From a virus, in the IMG/VR virus record IMGVR_UViG_3300025425_000069, positions 1 through 36,516 of that record: DNA of 36,516 bases, one strand, 5' to 3'. Positions within the stretch are counted from its first letter, which is position 1. Every line of letters starts with the position of its first letter. Of the stretch, positions 911 through 18,573 are shown one piece after another. The notes below the pieces were generated by a model that was not told where the DNA came from, did not search any database, and worked only from the letters and a program-made list of their open reading frames with translations. Made by a program: the position numbers and the translations under genes.

Positions 911-1563
911 GCTTGCCCTGAAACTCGGTTTGCCACGCGCGGACCAACGGCTTTTCGTATCACTGACAACTGCGCCGCAAGTCCGTCCCACCTGTTCTTC
1001 TCTGCGGCTGCACTTGCTTTGATTGTTTCCAGTTCTTTTTCCAGGGCTTCTGATTTTTCCAGAAGTTCGCGAAATGCTGCGCGGGATTTATTGAATGACA
1101 ATGAAAGGCTTTCCATGTCCTCGTTTCCACCATCCGGCCCAAACTCGGCTTCTCTGATCAGCATCACCCAACCGGGACGAACACCAAGAACCTCGGCCAA
1201 GGTGTCGTCAGTATCGCCCTGTCTGTATTTTCCGTCGTCAATATCGTAGCACTCTGCAAGCATCGTGAATATGTCGATGCGCTGGCGTTTTGTTGGCTCT
1301 GGCGTTTGTGTCTCGGCTTTCACGGGTTTCATTGGAACCACCTTTCTTTTTGCTTCGCAGCTTGGGCATCTGAGTTTGTTCTTTATGTACGTCCACCCCA
1401 TTGTGAGCGCCTTGGCGCGGGCTTGGCTTTCGTTGGGGCGCGCCGGCCGACCGCCGATCTGTTTGGTGACATAGGCGCAAGGTACGCATTCATCGCGGTT
1501 GCAATCGTCGCAGATAATTTTAGCCCTACTTTGGCCCTGCGTGTATTTTATGCCTTCAATCAT
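907..1563 (-). CDS. Zinc-ribbon-containing hypothetical protein (218 aa)
   Basis: The N-terminal third carries two cysteine pairs, CDDC and C-x2-C about 8 residues later (DECVPC), and a further CPSC about 40 residues on. This suggests a zinc-binding module. The C-terminal half has a helical region with LAEVLGVRPGWVMLIREAEFG, resembling a recognition-helix segment, and then a long coiled-coil-like stretch (LLEKSEALEKELETIKAS). The start at ATG 1563 is preferred over the more upstream in-frame start because TTGGGG lies about 8 nt before it and it overlaps the previous gene by only 8 bases. A DNA-binding role is inferred, not shown. Confidence 0.6.
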   Translation of the reverse strand: MIEGIKYTQGQSRAKIICDDCNRDECVPCAYVTKQIGGRPARPNESQARAKALTMGWTYIKNKLRCPSCEAKRKVVPMKPVKAETQTPEPTKRQRIDIFTMLAECYDIDDGKYRQGDTDDTLAEVLGVRPGWVMLIREAEFGPDGGNEDMESLSLSFNKSRAAFRELLEKSEALEKELETIKASAAAEKNRWDGLAAQLSVIRKAVGPRVANRVSGQA

Positions 1564-1795
1564 CAATCGCCCCAATCGCTGCTTTGATTTCTGCGTCTGC
1601 ATCGCGCCCTAGCTGCACCAACGCGGTCCGCAGGGCGTTGACGTGGACCCCAGCGGCCAGGACGGTTGCTGCCGACTGATAGCCCCATGTAAGCCGCCCG
1701 ACAGCGTCTCTGACCTGTTGCTCCATTTCGGGGGTGGGTTCCTGTGCCAAGCTGACTTCGCTTGTCGGCTGCGCGTCATACGGCGGGACGCTCAT
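1556..1795 (-). CDS. Hypothetical protein (79 aa)
   Basis: Unrecognised, mostly helical acidic protein. The ATG at 1795 overlaps the previous stop (1792-1794) as ATGA, which fixes the start. No membrane segment or cysteine motif is visible. It sits in the same tightly coupled operon as the zinc-ribbon and replication-associated genes. Confidence 0.55.
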   Translation of the reverse strand: MSVPPYDAQPTSEVSLAQEPTPEMEQQVRDAVGRLTWGYQSAATVLAAGVHVNALRTALVQLGRDADAEIKAAIGAIDD

Positions 1796-2181
1796 TGCTT
1801 CATTGTCCAGACGGCCCCGCATGTGGCTTTTCGGTGGTGCAGCAAGTCAAACAGCGGCCCGCGAAGTCTGCAGCCGATTGTCTTGATGTGAATTTCTCGC
1901 CCAAGACCCCGGCAAACCGCGTCGGTGATCTGCCGCGTTGTCATTTCCTTTTTAATCACCCGCAGAATTTCGGCATCTATTTCACGGCTAAACGGTTCGC
2001 GGCCTCTGTTTTGCATTGAAGGCGCTTTGCCCTTGTGACCCTCCATCCGAGCGGCCCGCATCATAGCAAGCCCCATTGCGTACTCGTCAACCTTGGCGTC
2101 AGGTAGGTTGGCCGGGATAACACCCGCCGCCATGGTGGACGCTTGGGCGTGGCGGTTGTCGGTTCTCTGAGTGATGTTCAT
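1792..2181 (-). CDS. Hypothetical protein with predicted HTH-like C-terminus (129 aa)
   Basis: The C-terminal 65 residues read EILRVIKKEMTTRQITDAV followed by a KTIGCRLRG segment, the spacing of a helix-turn-helix with a recognition helix; the N-terminal half is low complexity. The ATG at 2181 overlaps the zinc-ribbon gene stop as ATGA. A regulator or replication accessory DNA-binding protein is a reasonable guess from context. I cannot name the family. Confidence 0.5.
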   Translation of the reverse strand: MNITQRTDNRHAQASTMAAGVIPANLPDAKVDEYAMGLAMMRAARMEGHKGKAPSMQNRGREPFSREIDAEILRVIKKEMTTRQITDAVCRGLGREIHIKTIGCRLRGPLFDLLHHRKATCGAVWTMKQ

Positions 2182-5949: not shown

Positions 5950-6014
5950 GCCGTCACCTCAAGCGCGGCCAAGCCGTCTGCGCCGAAGTGGTGGTATAGG
6001 GCTGTGCGTGTCAT
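5946..6014 (-). CDS. Possible 22-aa coupled micro-ORF
   Basis: ATG 6014 to TGA 5946 gives MTRTALYHHFGADGLAALE plus three residues. It is joined by ATGA overlaps to the regulator upstream (6011-6014) and the methyltransferase downstream (5946-5949). The overlaps make it plausible as a translated linker peptide. The TALYxHFxADG sequence recalls the first residues of small GIY-YIG-type phage proteins, so it could be a remnant. Weak evidence either way. Confidence 0.35.
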   Translation of the reverse strand: MTRTALYHHFGADGLAALEVTA

Positions 6015-6274
6015 GCTGCACCTGCCTTGGGTGACTGCCCTTGAATATCATCTCGGCAATCCACAGATGGTGTATTATGAAAAGGACGCTGACTGAACAG
6101 TTCGGGGGGGCAAGGGATGCCCGCCGCATTTGCAAGCCCCGTACAGGTTTTAAACCATGACGGGGGGAATGTTCCGCGCACCACTGCATTGCTCACAGCC
6201 GTTGGCAGAACTTGAAGCGCCGATGCCATTTTCTGGCGTCCGACCTTCTCAGCGAATTGAATGGTTGTTATCAT
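6011..6274 (-). CDS. Small HTH regulator, Cro/CI-position repressor (87 aa)
   Basis: Residues about 4-40 (IQFAEKVGRQKMASALQV, then TAVSNAVVRGTFPPSW) form the helix-turn-helix seen in alphaproteobacterial phage regulators of the Cro/YdaS-like kind, with TAVSNAVV as recognition helix. The protein is too short for a CI-type C-terminal oligomerisation/cleavage domain. The start is ATG 6274 because a TATAAT -10 box ends 6 bases upstream (minus strand), so transcription would begin at or next to the ATG. It faces three operators and is divergent from the plus-strand operon, the position of a lysis-lysogeny or early-timing switch. Confidence 0.7.
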   Translation of the reverse strand: MITTIQFAEKVGRQKMASALQVLPTAVSNAVVRGTFPPSWFKTCTGLANAAGIPCPPELFSQRPFHNTPSVDCRDDIQGQSPKAGAA

Positions 6275-6310
6275 GAGGGCATTATATCCACCATATGTGG
6301 ATAATTGCAA
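6275..6310 (-). promoter_or_regulatory. Leftward promoter for the HTH regulator, probable leaderless transcript
   Basis: On the minus strand, TTGCAA (6310-6305) and a perfect TATAAT (6286-6281) are separated by 18 bases, with the regulator ATG beginning 7 bases after the -10. No Shine-Dalgarno precedes the ATG. Operator O1 fills the spacer and touches the -10, so binding there should shut the promoter off. Confidence 0.65.
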
Positions 6311-6358
6311 TACCACCATTTGTGATTTAGTGCTTGCATAATCCACGATTGGTGGATA
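6285..6358. promoter_or_regulatory. Three-operator array O1-O3
   Basis: Three related inverted repeats with the form ATCCAC-N5-GTGGAT. O1 at 6285-6303 is perfect over 7-base arms (TATCCAC/GTGGATA). O2 at 6312-6326 is degenerate (ACCAC/GTGAT). O3 at 6341-6357 is perfect over 6-base arms (ATCCAC/GTGGAT). Centres are at 6294, 6319 and 6349. The array sits between divergent genes, like lambda OR or OL, and each promoter spacer contains one outer operator. Binding by the adjacent HTH protein is inferred. Confidence 0.75.
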
Positions 6359-6362
6359 CCTT
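6334..6362 (+). promoter_or_regulatory. Rightward early promoter
   Basis: TTGCAT at 6334-6339 and TACCTT at 6357-6362 are spaced by 17 bases, and operator O3 lies exactly in the spacer, mirroring O1 in the opposite promoter. The -10 is a poor match, so the assignment is tentative. The first gene starts 33 bases downstream with a GGAGG ribosome site. Confidence 0.45.
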
Positions 6363-6394
6363 AATCCTCAAGCAATCAACCTGGAGGACGAACT

Positions 6395-6595
6395 ATGACC
6401 CCGCATTTCTACACCGACGCGAACGGCAGGACTGCCAGCCGCGAAGAAATCACAGACTACCGCACGAAGGCTGAAAAGGCTTTCTGCGCTGGCTTGTCAC
6501 GCCACACAATGCCCGCCTGCCCTGCGCCATGCTTGTCGCTTATCGTACATAGCTGGGTAACGCCCGCTTATGTTATCGACGCGGTGCGGACATGA
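6395..6595 (+). CDS. Hypothetical protein, first gene of rightward operon (66 aa)
   Basis: Unrecognised. CTGGAGGA lies 8 nt before the ATG, a strong ribosome site. The product has three cysteines, two in the ACPAPC segment, and no clear HTH, although the position is that of Cro in lambda. It is joined to the next gene by ATGA at 6592-6595. As the immediate product of the rightward promoter it may be an early regulator or host-takeover factor, but the sequence gives no direct sign of this. Confidence 0.55.
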   Translation: MTPHFYTDANGRTASREEITDYRTKAEKAFCAGLSRHTMPACPAPCLSLIVHSWVTPAYVIDAVRT

Positions 6596-6957: not shown

Positions 6958-7097
6958 TCCGCCGCATTATCGCGTATTTCCGCGACATCTACACCGCAGC
7001 CGAAGAAATCCAAGACATGCAATTCGCACTTTCGGAGATGAAGCGCCGTGAGGTCCGCACCGCTGAACACCTGACAACATATGAGGCAGAGACATGA
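6954..7097 (+). CDS. Hypothetical small protein (47 aa)
   Basis: ATG 6954 to TGA 7097, flanked by ATGA overlaps on both sides. The sequence begins MIRRIIAYFRDIYTAAEE and continues as one long charged helix (EIQDMQFALSEMKRREV), so it is probably a coiled-coil peptide. Function unknown. Confidence 0.6.
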   Translation: MIRRIIAYFRDIYTAAEEIQDMQFALSEMKRREVRTAEHLTTYEAET

Positions 7098-7855
7098 TTA
7101 AATTTGACGTATTCAGCAGGGTTGCAGGCGCAGTCCAGTTTACCTCAGAAATTGAGCCAAGAGATAAAGACTTGGGCAGCGTGAAGCTAGGCCTTGCTGT
7201 CCGCTGGGCGGTGAAAAACGATGCCAACCTGCGCGATGCCAACCTGCGCGGTGCCTACCTGCGCGGTGCCAACCTGCGCGATGCCAACCTGCGCGATGCC
7301 AACCTGCGCGGTGCCAACCTGATCGGTGCCAAACTGATCGGTGCCAACCTGAGCTGTGTTAACCTGCTCTGTGCCAACCTGAGCGATGCCAACCTGCGCG
7401 GTGCCAACCTGATCGGTGCCAACCTGAGCTGTGTTAACCTGTACTGTGCCAACCTGCGCGGTGCCAACCTGCGCGATGCCAACCTGAGCGATGCTCACCT
7501 GCGCGGTGCCTACCTGCGCGGTGCCAACCTGAGCGATGCCAACCTGATCGGTGCCAACCTGGGCGGTGCCAACCTGCGCGATGCTAACCTGAGCGGTGCC
7601 AACGGCATCAACGATTACGTCAAGTGTATCCAGATTGAGCGGTACTCAATCACATACACCGCCGACATTTTGCAAATCGGTTGCAAACGCCACCTGATCA
7701 GCGAATGGGCCGACTTTGACGATCATCGGATTGCGGAAATGGACGGCAAAGGTGCTCTGAAATTCTGGCGCAAGTATAAGGCTTGGATTTTCCAAACGAT
7801 TGAAATGTGTCCGGCAAAACCGACTGTATACGTCAGACCGGAGGCAGAGATATGA
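7094..7855 (+). CDS. Pentapeptide repeat protein (253 aa)
   Basis: Residues about 42-172 are an uninterrupted run of A(N/D/Y)LxG/D/S pentapeptides (ANLRD, ANLRG, ANLIG, VNLLC). These fold as a right-handed quadrilateral beta-helix. The family includes DNA-mimicking gyrase-protecting proteins (MfpA, Qnr), but many members have unknown partners. The N-terminal 40 residues and C-terminal 80 residues (DYVKCIQIERYSITYT onward, with IGCKRH and HRIAEMDGKGALKFWRKYK) are non-repetitive. The C-terminal part resembles a domain often appended to phage pentapeptide proteins. The gene is ATGA-coupled to its neighbours. DNA mimicry near gyrase-dependent phage replication is an inference. Confidence 0.9.
   Translation: MIKFDVFSRVAGAVQFTSEIEPRDKDLGSVKLGLAVRWAVKNDANLRDANLRGAYLRGANLRDANLRDANLRGANLIGAKLIGANLSCVNLLCANLSDANLRGANLIGANLSCVNLYCANLRGANLRDANLSDAHLRGAYLRGANLSDANLIGANLGGANLRDANLSGANGINDYVKCIQIERYSITYTADILQIGCKRHLISEWADFDDHRIAEMDGKGALKFWRKYKAWIFQTIEMCPAKPTVYVRPEAEI
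7219..7605 (+). repeat. 15-bp periodic coding repeat with internal 75-bp duplication
   Basis: The pentapeptide array is a 15-base repeat of the form GGTGCCAACCTGCGC, repeated about 26 times with changes mostly in the last codons. A 33-base block at 7334-7366 recurs exactly at 7409-7441, five pentapeptides (75 bases) later, showing growth by segmental slippage. The unusual open antisense frames here are a by-product of the repeat. Confidence 0.85.
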
Positions 7856-15381: not shown

Positions 15382-15732
15382 CTATCGGTATTTGAAAAAC
15401 AGAACAGCCAGCGCCATTACTGCCCTTCGAAACCTACCCACACCGTCGGCCATTAGCGCTTGGTGAAACTGTGCGCCTGCCGTGAACCGATCCCATCCGA
15501 TGGACAGAAAGTGATCGTGCAGCGCGGCCGCTTTTAAAAACCGCCGATCGTGCGGATCGAGTAGCCAGCGCCAGATCCAGGGGATCGAGACGTCGAACAC
15601 AAACCCCGCCGGCACCGTATAGGCCGCGCCTGTCTCGACGCAGCCCACATACCAGGTCAGAGGCTCTGTGATGCGGTAGCGGATGCCCCCGGCCGGCTCG
15701 TACCAGTCGCGGGCGCGGGTGTAGCGGCTCAT
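15382..15732 (-). CDS. DUF1353 family protein (116 aa)
   Basis: The family pattern is visible: VPAGFVFDVSIPWIWRWLL followed by AAALHDHFLS. DUF1353 proteins are common in tailed phages between tail and lysis genes, with no settled function. The HD in LHDHF and the fold suggest a metal-binding site. The ATG at 15732 overlaps the reverse transcriptase stop as ATGA, so the DGR and the lysis genes share one transcript. Confidence 0.8.
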   Translation of the reverse strand: MSRYTRARDWYEPAGGIRYRITEPLTWYVGCVETGAAYTVPAGFVFDVSIPWIWRWLLDPHDRRFLKAAALHDHFLSIGWDRFTAGAQFHQALMADGVGRFRRAVMALAVLFFKYR

Positions 15733-16838
15733 GTGTCGAGCAACTTCTTTCTTGCGTTTCTTTGCGCAATCATATGACGATCACTTAGCAGGGGCGGGGG
15801 TGTGAACGCCACGCCACCCAATATCTTCGATCTCAAGTTGTATGTGTCAGCGTGCCTGGCGTGCGCGACCCAAGACATAATCACGGGGTCGATCTCATCC
15901 CAAGTGATCCGGCCTTGGTGGTAAAGTGATGCCATCCGTTTCATCTTGCGCTTCATTCGGTTGATGCTGTCCTTGCGCAGCGCGCGGTGCGTTGGCCAGA
16001 TGCGGTACCCCAGAAAATCCAGCGCGCGGCCCCCGTCTCCGACTGGAAATACCTGTGTTTTGGCATTCGTGCGCAGGCCGAGGTGTGCCCATAGGAAATC
16101 TTCAATATCGCGGCGCACCAGGTGCAAGTGAGACTTGTCAGGGTGCACGATTGCGAAGTCATCCATGTAGCGCAAATATCGGCCCTCGCGCAGCGTGTGC
16201 TTCACAAAGTAATCCAGATCGTTCAGATAGATATTCGCGAAAAGCTGCGAAGTCAGGTTTCCGATCGGTATTCCGCGCGGCAATGTGTCGGATGGATCGG
16301 CGGTGCTGTCGATAATGCCGTCGATCAAGGTGAGTGTTTCCGAACAGGCGATCCGCCTGCGTATCTGACGCTTTAATACGTCGTGCGATATTGAGGGGAA
16401 ATATTTGGAAATGTCTGCTTTCAGCGCGCAAACGGACCCGTGTTTGCGATTGACCTCGCGCAGGTATGCCTGCACAGCGTCCGCGCCCCTGTGAGCACCC
16501 TTGCCCGGGCGGCACGCATATGACTGATCTATAAATCTGGCGTCGAAAATAGGCTCTAGGGTGGCAACCAGGGCATGCTGTACGATGCGATCCTTGAGGG
16601 GTAGCGAAGATATCTCGCGGCGCTTGGGCTCAAACACGAAAAAGAGATGATATGGGCCTGTCTGATAGGTTTTGTGAATCAGGCTGTTTTGAAGCTCGAT
16701 CAGGTTTGGCTCGAGGTTGGCGCGAAAGGTAATGACGTCCCTCTGGCGGTGCCGGCCTTTTGCGGTTTTCTCCCAAGCCGCGAGGAGCGAGGGCCACGAG
16801 GTCACGGCTTCCCATAGGTTATTAAATGTTTTGGCCAT
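15729..16838 (-). CDS. DGR reverse transcriptase (369 aa)
   Basis: This enzyme copies TR RNA with errors at adenines and starts mutagenic homing into VR. Motifs in order: EPKRREISSLPLKDRIVQHA (RT2), SYACRPGKGAH, the first catalytic aspartate in CALKADISKYFPSI (motif A), the DGR-type GIPIGNLTSQ (motif 4, with SQ in place of the usual fidelity residues), the catalytic RYMDDF (motif C) and LDFLGYRI (motif 7). Length is normal for DGR enzymes. ATG 16838 is preferred; an in-frame GTG lies at 16844. There is no maturase or endonuclease domain, so it is not a group II intron. It overlaps the DUF1353 gene (ATGA). Confidence 0.95.
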   Translation of the reverse strand: MAKTFNNLWEAVTSWPSLLAAWEKTAKGRHRQRDVITFRANLEPNLIELQNSLIHKTYQTGPYHLFFVFEPKRREISSLPLKDRIVQHALVATLEPIFDARFIDQSYACRPGKGAHRGADAVQAYLREVNRKHGSVCALKADISKYFPSISHDVLKRQIRRRIACSETLTLIDGIIDSTADPSDTLPRGIPIGNLTSQLFANIYLNDLDYFVKHTLREGRYLRYMDDFAIVHPDKSHLHLVRRDIEDFLWAHLGLRTNAKTQVFPVGDGGRALDFLGYRIWPTHRALRKDSINRMKRKMKRMASLYHQGRITWDEIDPVIMSWVAHARHADTYNLRSKILGGVAFTPPPLLSDRHMIAQRNARKKLLDT

Positions 16839-16844
16839 TGACAC

Positions 16845-17003
16845 TCTCGCAAATAGGGACGGCCGGAATGAGGGGTCTCCGCAAGCAGGTACTGCGACAC
16901 TCCGGCCTGTTTATTTTTTTCGGCACTTGGCCGAGGATTACAGGCCCTTTCGGGGGTGTTCTGTGCGAAAGCCCTTGAGCTTTTGCCTTCTGACGAACCC
17001 CGG
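16845..17003 (-). ncRNA. TR RNA 3' segment between TR and reverse transcriptase
   Basis: This 159-base non-coding stretch separates TR from the reverse transcriptase start. In the Bordetella DGR the equivalent downstream RNA is needed for cDNA priming and binding to the enzyme. Directly after TR, CCCC/GGGG (16998-17001 and 17008-17011) can form a short stem. A second CCC/GGG stem is possible near 16948-16956. No independent promoter or coding frame is apparent. Confidence 0.55.
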
Positions 17004-17122
17004 AAGCGGGGCGAAAGCCGATGTTCGTGTTCGCGTTCGAACGGGAATTGTTCAGGTTCAGGGCGAAGGCCCCAGCCCGAGAGCTATTGCTCCAATTGCC
17101 GCCACGGATCGGCAGGCGCTCA
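17004..17122 (-). other. DGR template repeat (TR), 119 bp
   Basis: The minus strand of 17004-17122 matches VR (17550-17668) at constant offset with 109 of 119 bases identical. All 10 differences lie at adenines of the template strand (plus-strand T at 17022, 17024, 17030, 17031, 17036, 17037, 17051, 17087, 17088, 17097). TR has 22 adenines, so 10 of 22 changed and 0 of 97 other bases changed. TR carries eight AAC/AAT codons in the VR frame, the usual DGR design. Its 5' end overlaps the avd stop codon. Confidence 0.97.
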
Positions 17123-17473
17123 TGCATGGCCCGCAACCCCTCCTTTCAGCGACTTAAACCAGCCGCCGATCATGCGGCCCACCTCATCCATGAGGCGAGA
17201 CCATGTTTCGTATTTTTTCAGGTCGATATACCGCAAGCCAAAGGCTGTTCGGATTTGTGAGCGCAACAAGTCAAGCTCTGCATCCAGATCCTGCATCGTG
17301 GTCTTTTTGTGGTAGCGCTTGTTGGTGACAATAATCAGACGCAGCACGCCCCACATAGCGTCCCTTATCTCGGCACCCAGGACGTGCCGTTCAAATTTTG
17401 GAAATTGACGCAGTGCAACATATCCATATGCAATCATCTCCTCGCATTTCTGTCTGATTTTCAGATCGTCCAA
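17120..17473 (-). CDS. avd: DGR accessory variability determinant, Avd (117 aa)
   Basis: Avd is a small basic four-helix-bundle protein that forms a pentameric barrel, binds the reverse transcriptase and TR RNA, and is required for mutagenic retrohoming. This protein is all-helical, with YGYVALRQFPKFERHVL and WGVLRLIIVTNKRYHKKTT, the pattern of Avd/four-helix-bundle (IVS-like) proteins, followed by LDLLRSQIRTAFGLRYI. It sits between VR and TR exactly as in the Bordetella phage cassette. The start is TTG 17473, supported by AAGGAG 8 nt upstream; no ATG is available near it. The stop codon falls inside TR. Confidence 0.9.
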   Translation of the reverse strand: MDDLKIRQKCEEMIAYGYVALRQFPKFERHVLGAEIRDAMWGVLRLIIVTNKRYHKKTTMQDLDAELDLLRSQIRTAFGLRYIDLKKYETWSRLMDEVGRMIGGWFKSLKGGVAGHA

Positions 17474-17497
17474 GCCGGCGCTCCTTGCGGTAATGGA

Positions 17498-17513
17498 CCG
17501 CGCTATCGCGCGG
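17498..17513. promoter_or_regulatory. VR-proximal hairpin/cruciform with GATA loop
   Basis: CCGCGC at 17498-17503 and GCGCGG at 17508-17513 form a perfect 6-base stem with a 4-base loop that reads GATA on the coding (minus) strand. Bordetella DGR target recognition needs a similar stem with a GRNA tetraloop just downstream of VR, and GATA fits GRNA. It lies 36 bases past the end of VR and after the target gene's stop. It could also act as a weak transcript-end structure, but no T-run follows. Confidence 0.7.
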
Positions 17514-17538
17514 CCTTCAGATTTCAGCTCAGCAGATT

Positions 17539-18573
17539 TCAGATTACGAAAGCGGGGCGAAAGCCGAAGCTCGTGAGCGCGACCGAACGGGAATTGCTCA
17601 GGTTCAGGGCGAAGGCCCCAGCCCGAGAGCTAACGCTCCAATAGCCGCCACGGATCGGCAGGCGCTCACTGGTTGTGGTAATGTAAAAGCCATCGCTTTC
17701 GATCGGCGATCCTGGCTGCATAAGGCCGAGCTGCTTCAACCGCTTGAGTGCCGCCGTGGAAACCGTGTTTGCGGTCATGCTCGAAAAGGCTGCTCCGTTC
17801 CCGCAGGTGAGCGTATCCGCAGCGGTGCCTGACGTAGCATACTTGACGGTGCCGGCCGTGCCCGGTGCCACTAGGGTACCATCAGAGGCAAGGATGGCCT
17901 GCCACGGCCCCGACCCGCTCAGGTCGGTAGCCAAAAGCACAGCGTCATTGTTGGGGATCACCTGAATTTCACTGTCAACGACCCGCATTCCCGGCGACCA
18001 CTCCCACACGTTGCCGTTGAGGTTCTGGATGCCGAATGGCGTTGGCGGGTAATTCCAGGCGACGGGGCCTGATCCCGCCCGAACCGGCGCGCCAAAGCTG
18101 CCTCCCGGCGTTGGATTGCCCGCAGCATTCACACCAAATTCGCCCTGCGCATTATAGGCGCGACCGTTGTTGTTGTTTCCACGCGGGAACCGGCCAGATG
18201 CGCGGGCGCTCAGTGCGATTGCCGCATACATGGCGTTTGTGCATACGCAAAACCCCAGACCGGAGGCGCGCGCGAGCGTGACGGCCTGATCGTGGTTGAT
18301 GCTGACTCTGGGCATGAGACCCGCCTGTGACACCATTTCGCCACTCACCTCAGCGGCCTGGTGGGTGCCGATCAGTATTTCATCTTTTTCAACGCCGCCC
18401 ACGATGAACGCCGGATGCACACCAGCCCCAAGGCTTGCGTCAAGGTCCTCTACGTTGAATTTAGAGATCCGATGAAAATAGCTGGGCTGGCCTTTGGTCG
18501 TGAAGCGCACCGTCATCTGCCCCTTGCTCATTGCCTCGACTTGCGTTCGCAAGTTGTCCTGGAGTGCGGTCAT
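17539..18573 (-). CDS. DGR variable protein, tail-tip receptor-binding protein (344 aa)
   Basis: The C-terminal two-thirds has the formylglycine-generating-enzyme/C-type-lectin fold used by DGR targets: an ASGRFPRG segment, the FGE hallmark GNVWEW at residues 187-192, and the terminal block LPIRGGYWS ... GFRPAF. VR covers residues about 302-342. Seven residues differ from TR's prediction: 311, 314, 326, 331, 333, 335 and 336 (six Asn codons became Tyr, Val, Ser, Val, Leu and Ser; one Ile became Phe). The N-terminal 130 residues likely anchor it to the tail. It lies immediately after the tail-fibre genes (TAATG overlap), supporting a host-receptor role as for Mtd of Bordetella phage. Confidence 0.92.
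   Translation of the reverse strand: MTALQDNLRTQVEAMSKGQMTVRFTTKGQPSYFHRISKFNVEDLDASLGAGVHPAFIVGGVEKDEILIGTHQAAEVSGEMVSQAGLMPRVSINHDQAVTLARASGLGFCVCTNAMYAAIALSARASGRFPRGNNNNGRAYNAQGEFGVNAAGNPTPGGSFGAPVRAGSGPVAWNYPPTPFGIQNLNGNVWEWSPGMRVVDSEIQVIPNNDAVLLATDLSGSGPWQAILASDGTLVAPGTAGTVKYATSGTAADTLTCGNGAAFSSMTANTVSTAALKRLKQLGLMQPGSPIESDGFYITTTSERLPIRGGYWSVSSRAGAFALNLSNSRSVALTSFGFRPAFVI
17550..17668 (-). other. DGR variable region (VR), 119 bp
   Basis: The 3' end of the target gene, identical to TR except at ten template adenines. The end nearest the stop is invariant and GC-rich (GGCTTTCGCCCCGCTT on the coding strand), the expected initiation-of-mutagenic-homing (IMH) element. Beyond it the two repeats diverge abruptly in both directions. 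Eight AAY codons of TR correspond to VR codons that now read Tyr, Val, Asn, Ser, Asn, Val, Leu and Ser. Confidence 0.97.

Follow-up and report, generated by a model that had tools for sequence, protein, structure and literature searches.

A Probable Fused Remnant of a Lambda-Type Immunity Region, with a Cro Regulator and without cI, in a Phage Record

The cro mRNA of phage lambda has a leader, and, to our knowledge, all studies of lambda Cro have looked at it opposite CI. For phage PY54, both cI and cro were found to be leaderless by RACE, and Cro binds a single site (OR3), presumably without repressing its own gene (PMC4488713). In alphaproteobacteria, mRNAs without a leader are not unusual (PMC7566282). 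Mycobacteriophage D29, of the L5 group, became obligately lytic through a natural deletion of its repressor (PMC6550527). Paracoccus phage Shpa is described as lytic, forming clear plaques and lacking an integrase and the lysogeny genes (PMC5135824). Here we describe a phage locus that is very probably a fused remnant of a lambda-type immunity region, in which the regulator is Cro and cI has been lost. The locus resembles D29 in its repressor loss; we know of neither a Cro nor a fusion of two operator regions in D29. The parts and logic of the locus are of the lambda kind, and natural loss of a repressor is already known from D29; as far as we found in a limited literature search, the new elements are a Cro-only state, a conserved operator within cro, and the fusion, in several lineages, of OR to OL through excision of cI.

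The window, that is, the whole 36.5-kb stretch of DNA of an IMG/VR phage record, was compared with its relatives by regulator locus. The comparison set comprised 22 loci including the window and was obtained from a scan of viral contigs for the O1/-10 motif together with Cro-alignment scans; the remaining loci from the pattern scan of viral contigs were mostly matches in unrelated genes. The same operator/-10 motif was also seen at 263-284 of an unrelated contig, L019 (TATCCACAAAATGTGGATATAATG), with further partial copies upstream, in front of a gene with a Shine-Dalgarno sequence. A sibling contig (G001) is 99% identical to the window and reaches at least 1.5 kb beyond its left end, so that the window record is incomplete. 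The region upstream of gp66 in EBPR podovirus 2 carries the same operators in the same places as the window. Operators of the ATCCAC-N5-GTGGAT type were absent from the stretches examined of Sulfitobacter phages NYA-2014a and phiGT1, which are close to the window in their recombination genes.

Two other features of the window were observed in the course of this comparison. A diversity-generating retroelement occupies 15729-18573 on the minus strand, with a reverse transcriptase gene (15729-16844), a template repeat (17001-17122), and a variable repeat (17547-17668) at the 3' end of the ORF at 17539-18573. It appears to be active, since template adenines account for 10 of the 11 differences between the template and variable repeats, and the variable repeat contains 14 of the 21 differences that separate the window from G001 over 14 kb. 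The plus-strand gene at 7094-7855, which encodes pentapeptide repeats, contains a long array of 15-bp units at which the alignment to the sibling contig breaks, and this suggests that the repeat number differs between the two contigs.

The three palindromes that an earlier note had described as being of the ATCCAC-N5-GTGGAT type are indeed centered at 6294, 6319, and 6349; however, only the outer two fit this consensus perfectly. O1 (6286..6302, ATCCACCATATGTGGAT), which corresponds to OR1, and O3 (6341..6357, ATCCACGATTGGTGGAT), which corresponds to the outer OL operator (OL1), each match at 12/12 positions, whereas O2 (6311..6327, TACCACCATTTGTGATT) is imperfect, matching at only 8/12 positions, and was missed when three mismatches were allowed. 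O2 is homologous to the inner OL operator (OL2) and is possibly an OR2 hybrid. With at most one mismatch allowed, the consensus was found at three sites in the whole window compared with 0.04 expected from shuffled sequences; the third of these sites, at 6059-6075 inside the regulator gene, had not been included in the earlier note and is termed O4. A weight matrix trained only on the operators of the relatives, without the window sites, gave these same four sites the highest scores in the window (O1, 23.8 bits; O3, 21.3; O2, 16.9; O4, 16.1), compared with 8.7 bits for the next-best site and a maximum of 14.6 bits in 20 shuffled windows. On the strength of these scores, we take the four operator sites to be real. 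Nearly all relatives have a palindrome near -28 relative to the cro ATG, even where its letters differ. In the distant relatives Shpa, L041, L045, L046, and L047, the palindrome at -27 to -29 has another sequence, and most of these loci carry additional copies at distances of hundreds of bases; the type shared by Shpa and L045 is TGCTAA-N5-TTAGCA. Such variation in operator letters at a fixed geometry resembles that of heteroimmune lambdoid phages. Because the letters vary while the geometry holds, this pattern favors the palindromes as targets of the neighboring proteins, and it supports the earlier proposal that those of the window are operators of the adjacent HTH protein.

The outer operators lie in the spacers of two divergent promoters, in agreement with the earlier note. 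The putative cro promoter (PR, 6281..6310, minus strand) consists of TTGCAA (6310-6305), an 18-bp spacer containing O1, and TATAAT (6286-6281), and the putative rightward promoter (PL, 6334..6362, plus strand) consists of TTGCAT (6334-6339), a 17-bp spacer containing O3, and TACCTT (6357-6362). The latter aligns to the PL of L011 (TTGATT-17-TAGCTT). The first gene of the rightward early operon (6395..6595, plus strand; 66 aa, phrog_27755) is preceded by a Shine-Dalgarno sequence, GGAGG (6383..6387, plus strand), and leads to genes for a single-strand annealing protein and an exonuclease. AGGAG-like sites precede many other genes of the window as well as this one. On the cro side, a gap of 6 nt separates the -10 TATAAT from the ATG at 6274, and no purine-rich Shine-Dalgarno sequence is present, both as the earlier note had observed. 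We thus placed the predicted transcription start on the A of the cro ATG (6274, minus strand) from the -10 gap, the lack of a Shine-Dalgarno sequence, and the geometry of the relatives. When the 22 loci were aligned at the ATG, they shared a -35 beginning with TTG and a 17-bp palindrome from about -28; in most, some 6-9 nt separate the end of the -10 from the ATG, and a Shine-Dalgarno sequence was almost absent before cro. The gap between the -10 and the ATG varied, being 8-9 nt in L026 and L033 and ambiguous in L027, L043, L044, and L047. A longer regulator starting from the GTG at 6346 was ruled out, as the relatives start at the ATG. The cI side of the relatives appeared similar: in the eight loci with a callable start, the ATGs of cI and cro are 86-91 nt apart and cI has no Shine-Dalgarno sequence (the calls of L004 and L039 were left out, their ATGs having been chosen too far upstream), and in most the cI ATG follows about 7 nt after the end of TTGnnn-17-GAAnnn or a closely similar sequence. 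The lack of a Shine-Dalgarno sequence and the -10 that places the start on the AUG are the sequence signs of a leaderless mRNA, and, with the geometry kept in the relatives, a leaderless cro mRNA starting at or next to the AUG is well supported as a prediction for the window.

The regulator gene (6011..6274, minus strand) encodes 87 aa and is the first of a leftward operon with methyltransferase, RusA-like, and replication genes. Its product shares 52% identity with gp66 of EBPR podovirus 2. An AF2 model of the regulator (mean pLDDT 86; helices 4-11, 13-20, 24-33, and 38-51) showed a confident HTH core and a low-confidence tail (61-87). The best match in a Foldseek search was 3bd1 (Cro Xfaso 1, probability 0.99), followed by 5w8y, N15 Cro, and lambda Cro, with E-values above 0.1, and the profile search gave 3bd1 with an E-value of 0.038; Cro Xfaso 1 was the closest solved structure, followed by XPH1, N15 Cro, and lambda Cro, with weak E-values and a consistent ranking. 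The match to the Pfam Cro family (PF09048) scored 16.2 bits, below the gathering cut-off of 32.7, a limit set by the database that does not describe the biology of the protein; by sequence alone, the regulator would be a distant Cro at best. Because the profile and fold matches of this small HTH protein are Cro, and because a CI-like gene lies opposite it in the relatives, the regulator is Cro and not CI, and its identification as a CI-type repressor was excluded on the same grounds. The likeness to lambda cI transcribed from PRM drawn in the earlier note therefore does not hold, as the gene that stands opposite the regulator in 19 of the 22 loci, cI, is missing here. The predicted leaderless cro, and the presence of N15 Cro among the fold matches of its product, recall the PY54/N15 immB region, and PY54, with cI and cro both leaderless, is an experimental precedent; unlike the single Cro site of PY54, O1 lies within the cro promoter.

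In the relatives, the CI-like gene that diverges from cro encodes a small HTH protein and is located between OR, with three sites 25 and 26 bp apart, and OL, a pair of sites 29-31 bp apart that precedes the other early operon. This layout is like that of lambda in its divergent cI and cro, its 17-bp palindromic operators placed in promoter spacers, its second operator set at the opposite early promoter, the distance of about 44 bp from OR2 down to the predicted start of cI, and the prediction that cI is leaderless; it differs from lambda in that CI is about 88 aa long and has no C-terminal domain. The window departs further from lambda: cI, OR3, and PRM are absent, OR1 is fused to OL, cro is predicted to be leaderless, and a further operator lies inside cro. 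Likewise, the window shares with EBPR podovirus 2 the related Cro, the operators, the promoter-to-ATG geometry, and O4 (at +196 there), whereas EBPR podovirus 2 retains cI (gp65), OR2, OR3, a separate OL pair, and an integrase. A CI homologue was detected in 13 of the 17 records searched, the exceptions being the window, its sibling G001, the contig of L033, and Shpa. An HTH_3 gene adjoins in most of the remaining relatives, with none found next to cro in G005 or Shpa, and L047 has a divergent XRE-like ORF opposite cro. A search of the window record for CI, an S24 peptidase, an HTH_3 domain above the cut-off, or an integrase gave nothing convincing; the lone HTH_3 match (17497-17565) was below the cut-off and on the strand opposite to the variable-protein gene. 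A small ORF convergent with cI and overlapping its 3' end was noticed in L011 (9901-10071, minus strand) and L004 (5548-5730, plus strand, gp64); its product is alike between these distant relatives (RCDQ..F..GNPN..LPRY), and it is lost with cI in the window.

The origin of the three window sites was addressed by spacing and alignment. The operators of the window are 25 and 30 bp apart. When 6303-6375 was aligned to L011, z was 17.0 against OL and 5.6 against OR, and averaged over the relatives, the mean z was 9.6 to OL and 5.0 to OR; the same test classed 17 of 17 controls correctly (eight OL and nine OR). The alignment to OR of L034 gave a z of 9.9, and the descent of O2 from OR2 or OL2 is partly ambiguous. 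O3 is identical at 16 of 17 positions to the outer OL site of L011 (10195-10211, ATCCACGAATGGTGGAT), and the distance to the next ATG past the outer OL site is alike (54 nt in the window and 60 nt in L011). From the OL-type spacing of 30 bp, the alignment to OL, and the identity of O3 to the outer OL site of L011, we identified the three sites as OR1 plus an OL pair and not OR1-OR2-OR3, with only O1 being clearly of OR origin. A segment, which spans about 0.5 kb in L011, would thus be gone, and the putative junction left by the loss of cI lies at 6303..6314, with OR1 and its 25-bp OR1-OR2 spacing on the left and OL sequence on the right. The same junction was present in two other contigs, with identities of 100% (over 4.7 kb) and 99.2%, respectively; it is therefore not an error of a single assembly. 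With regard to the "three-operator divergent switch" of the earlier note, the operators and the divergent promoters stand, whereas the OR1-OR3 array does not: three operators are present, but O2 and O3 are OL by homology and spacing, and a cI gene diverging from cro is found neither in the window nor in its sibling. "Switch" is probably the wrong word too, because no opposing repressor was found in the record. Within this incomplete record, the repressor has been lost and the operators have been kept.

The same loss of cI apparently occurred in Shpa and in L033, independently of the window. Shpa has a Cro-family gene, an OR1-type palindrome at -28, and an OL pair nearby without cI; it differs from the window in its operator type and in the 117 bp between the starts of OR1 and the inner OL site. 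Its outer pair gave a z of 9.2 to OL of L045 and of 0.9 to OR. L045 itself carries an extra 267-aa gene with a TTG start (1305-2108, minus strand) between cI and OL, and the interval lost in Shpa may thus have held cargo. Contig L033 has OR1, OR2, and a pair of sites 30 bp apart that adjoins a non-repressor gene, and its OL assignment is weaker (mean z 4.3 compared with 1.4). The well-supported branches of a Cro tree force at least three gains or losses of cI, in a tree of 88 columns that is short of signal and has few well-supported forks. A search for further cI-less contigs resembling Shpa or L033 gave no new case, and L055 and L056 carry an XRE-type divergent gene.

The additional site inside cro, the candidate operator O4 (6059..6075), lies at +199 from the ATG. 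An equivalent site was observed at +196 in L004, L026, L032, and L038, at +199 in degraded form in L033, and at +229 in L040, in which the N-terminus is longer; the site is absent or degraded in L027, L028, L034, L036, L037, and L039. For the matrix used here, the offsets of L027, L033, and L039 were out of register, the only effect being a weaker matrix. O4 would likely serve either as a roadblock or in a loop of about 227 bp to O1.

Alternatives to both predictions made for cro were considered. For O4, overlap with the conserved-looking motif xPxVD and its absence or degradation in several relatives would be consistent with a by-product of protein conservation that is not an operator. We regard this as unlikely, since, for each locus, only 0-40 of 2000 redraws of synonymous codons reached the O4 score, the left half-site is kept while the encoded residues change (NTP, NPS, GSP, NSP, PTP, and NSQ), the site overlaps the coding sequence for the low-confidence tail of the protein, and L045, which has another specificity, carries its own operator type at +200 of cro (12/14 match). 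A role of O4 as an operator thus remains our preferred reading. It is very unlikely that TATAAT is a chance match and that a more distant upstream promoter gives the regulator mRNA a normal leader: the spacing of -35, palindrome, -10, and ATG is constant in most of the 22 loci, neither an upstream promoter nor a Shine-Dalgarno sequence is conserved, and the upstream space is occupied by the operators, PL, and, in the relatives, cI. The poor -10 matches in some relatives are the point in favor of such a leader, and we retain the leaderless cro mRNA.

The locus could alternatively be an intact lambda-like OR1-OR3 switch of a temperate phage, with CI encoded elsewhere or in the part that was not recovered, given that at least 1.5 kb of the genome is missing from the window and that three operators lie between divergent promoters as in OR. 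However, the O2-O3 spacing is 30 bp, as in OL, and not 26 bp, the surroundings of O2 and O3 are OL sequence, and cI of the relatives is always at this very spot; together with a record devoid of a CI homologue, an HTH_3 domain over the cut-off, an S24 peptidase, and an integrase, these observations make an intact switch quite improbable. Least credible of all is an ancestral cI-less arrangement into which cI was later inserted in the relatives. Such an origin draws on a Cro tree whose root and deep forks are poorly supported, but the CI-less loci are scattered among CI-bearing ones with three changes forced, the window and Shpa carry the OL element that lies beyond cI in the relatives, and insertion would need repeated splitting at one and the same place. 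Loss of cI from a lambda-type region is thus the history that we propose.

In the proposed history, the ancestor would have had cro and a CI-like gene diverging from OR1-OR2-OR3, with an OL pair governing the opposite early operon. The segment from about OR2/OR3 via cI to OL2 would then have been lost, possibly through a recombination event at the common CCAC half-site, leaving PR (with OR1) and PL (with OL2-OL1) back to back. After infection, PR and PL would both fire, and the cro mRNA, starting at or next to its AUG, would be translated without a Shine-Dalgarno sequence. Dimers of Cro may subsequently fill O1 and shut PR, turning off cro and the replication operon, and on O2 and O3 they would shut PL and hence the recombination operon; bound at O4 inside cro, they might form the roadblock or the loop to O1. 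Because nothing would hold the opposite state without CI, a negative-feedback timer run by Cro alone is more likely than a bistable switch. The window phage should be lytic, yet repressible by the CI of related prophages with the same operators.

For the family as a whole, we lean toward a view that we hold only somewhat more firmly than its opposite: in a widespread family of alphaproteobacterial phages, cI would have been excised repeatedly between OR and OL, leaving a fused PR-PL under a leaderless Cro, with an additional operator, conserved in the family, some 200 bp into cro and over the coding sequence for a disordered tail. The intragenic operator and the double leaderless arrangement represent further testable departures from lambda. 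Joining of two operator arrays would offer a simple one-step route from a temperate to a lytic phage, and the present comparison shows it in three lineages, including that of a cultivated phage. Natural phages that keep Cro and its operators without cI would show Cro acting alone, and would make the purpose of Cro directly testable.
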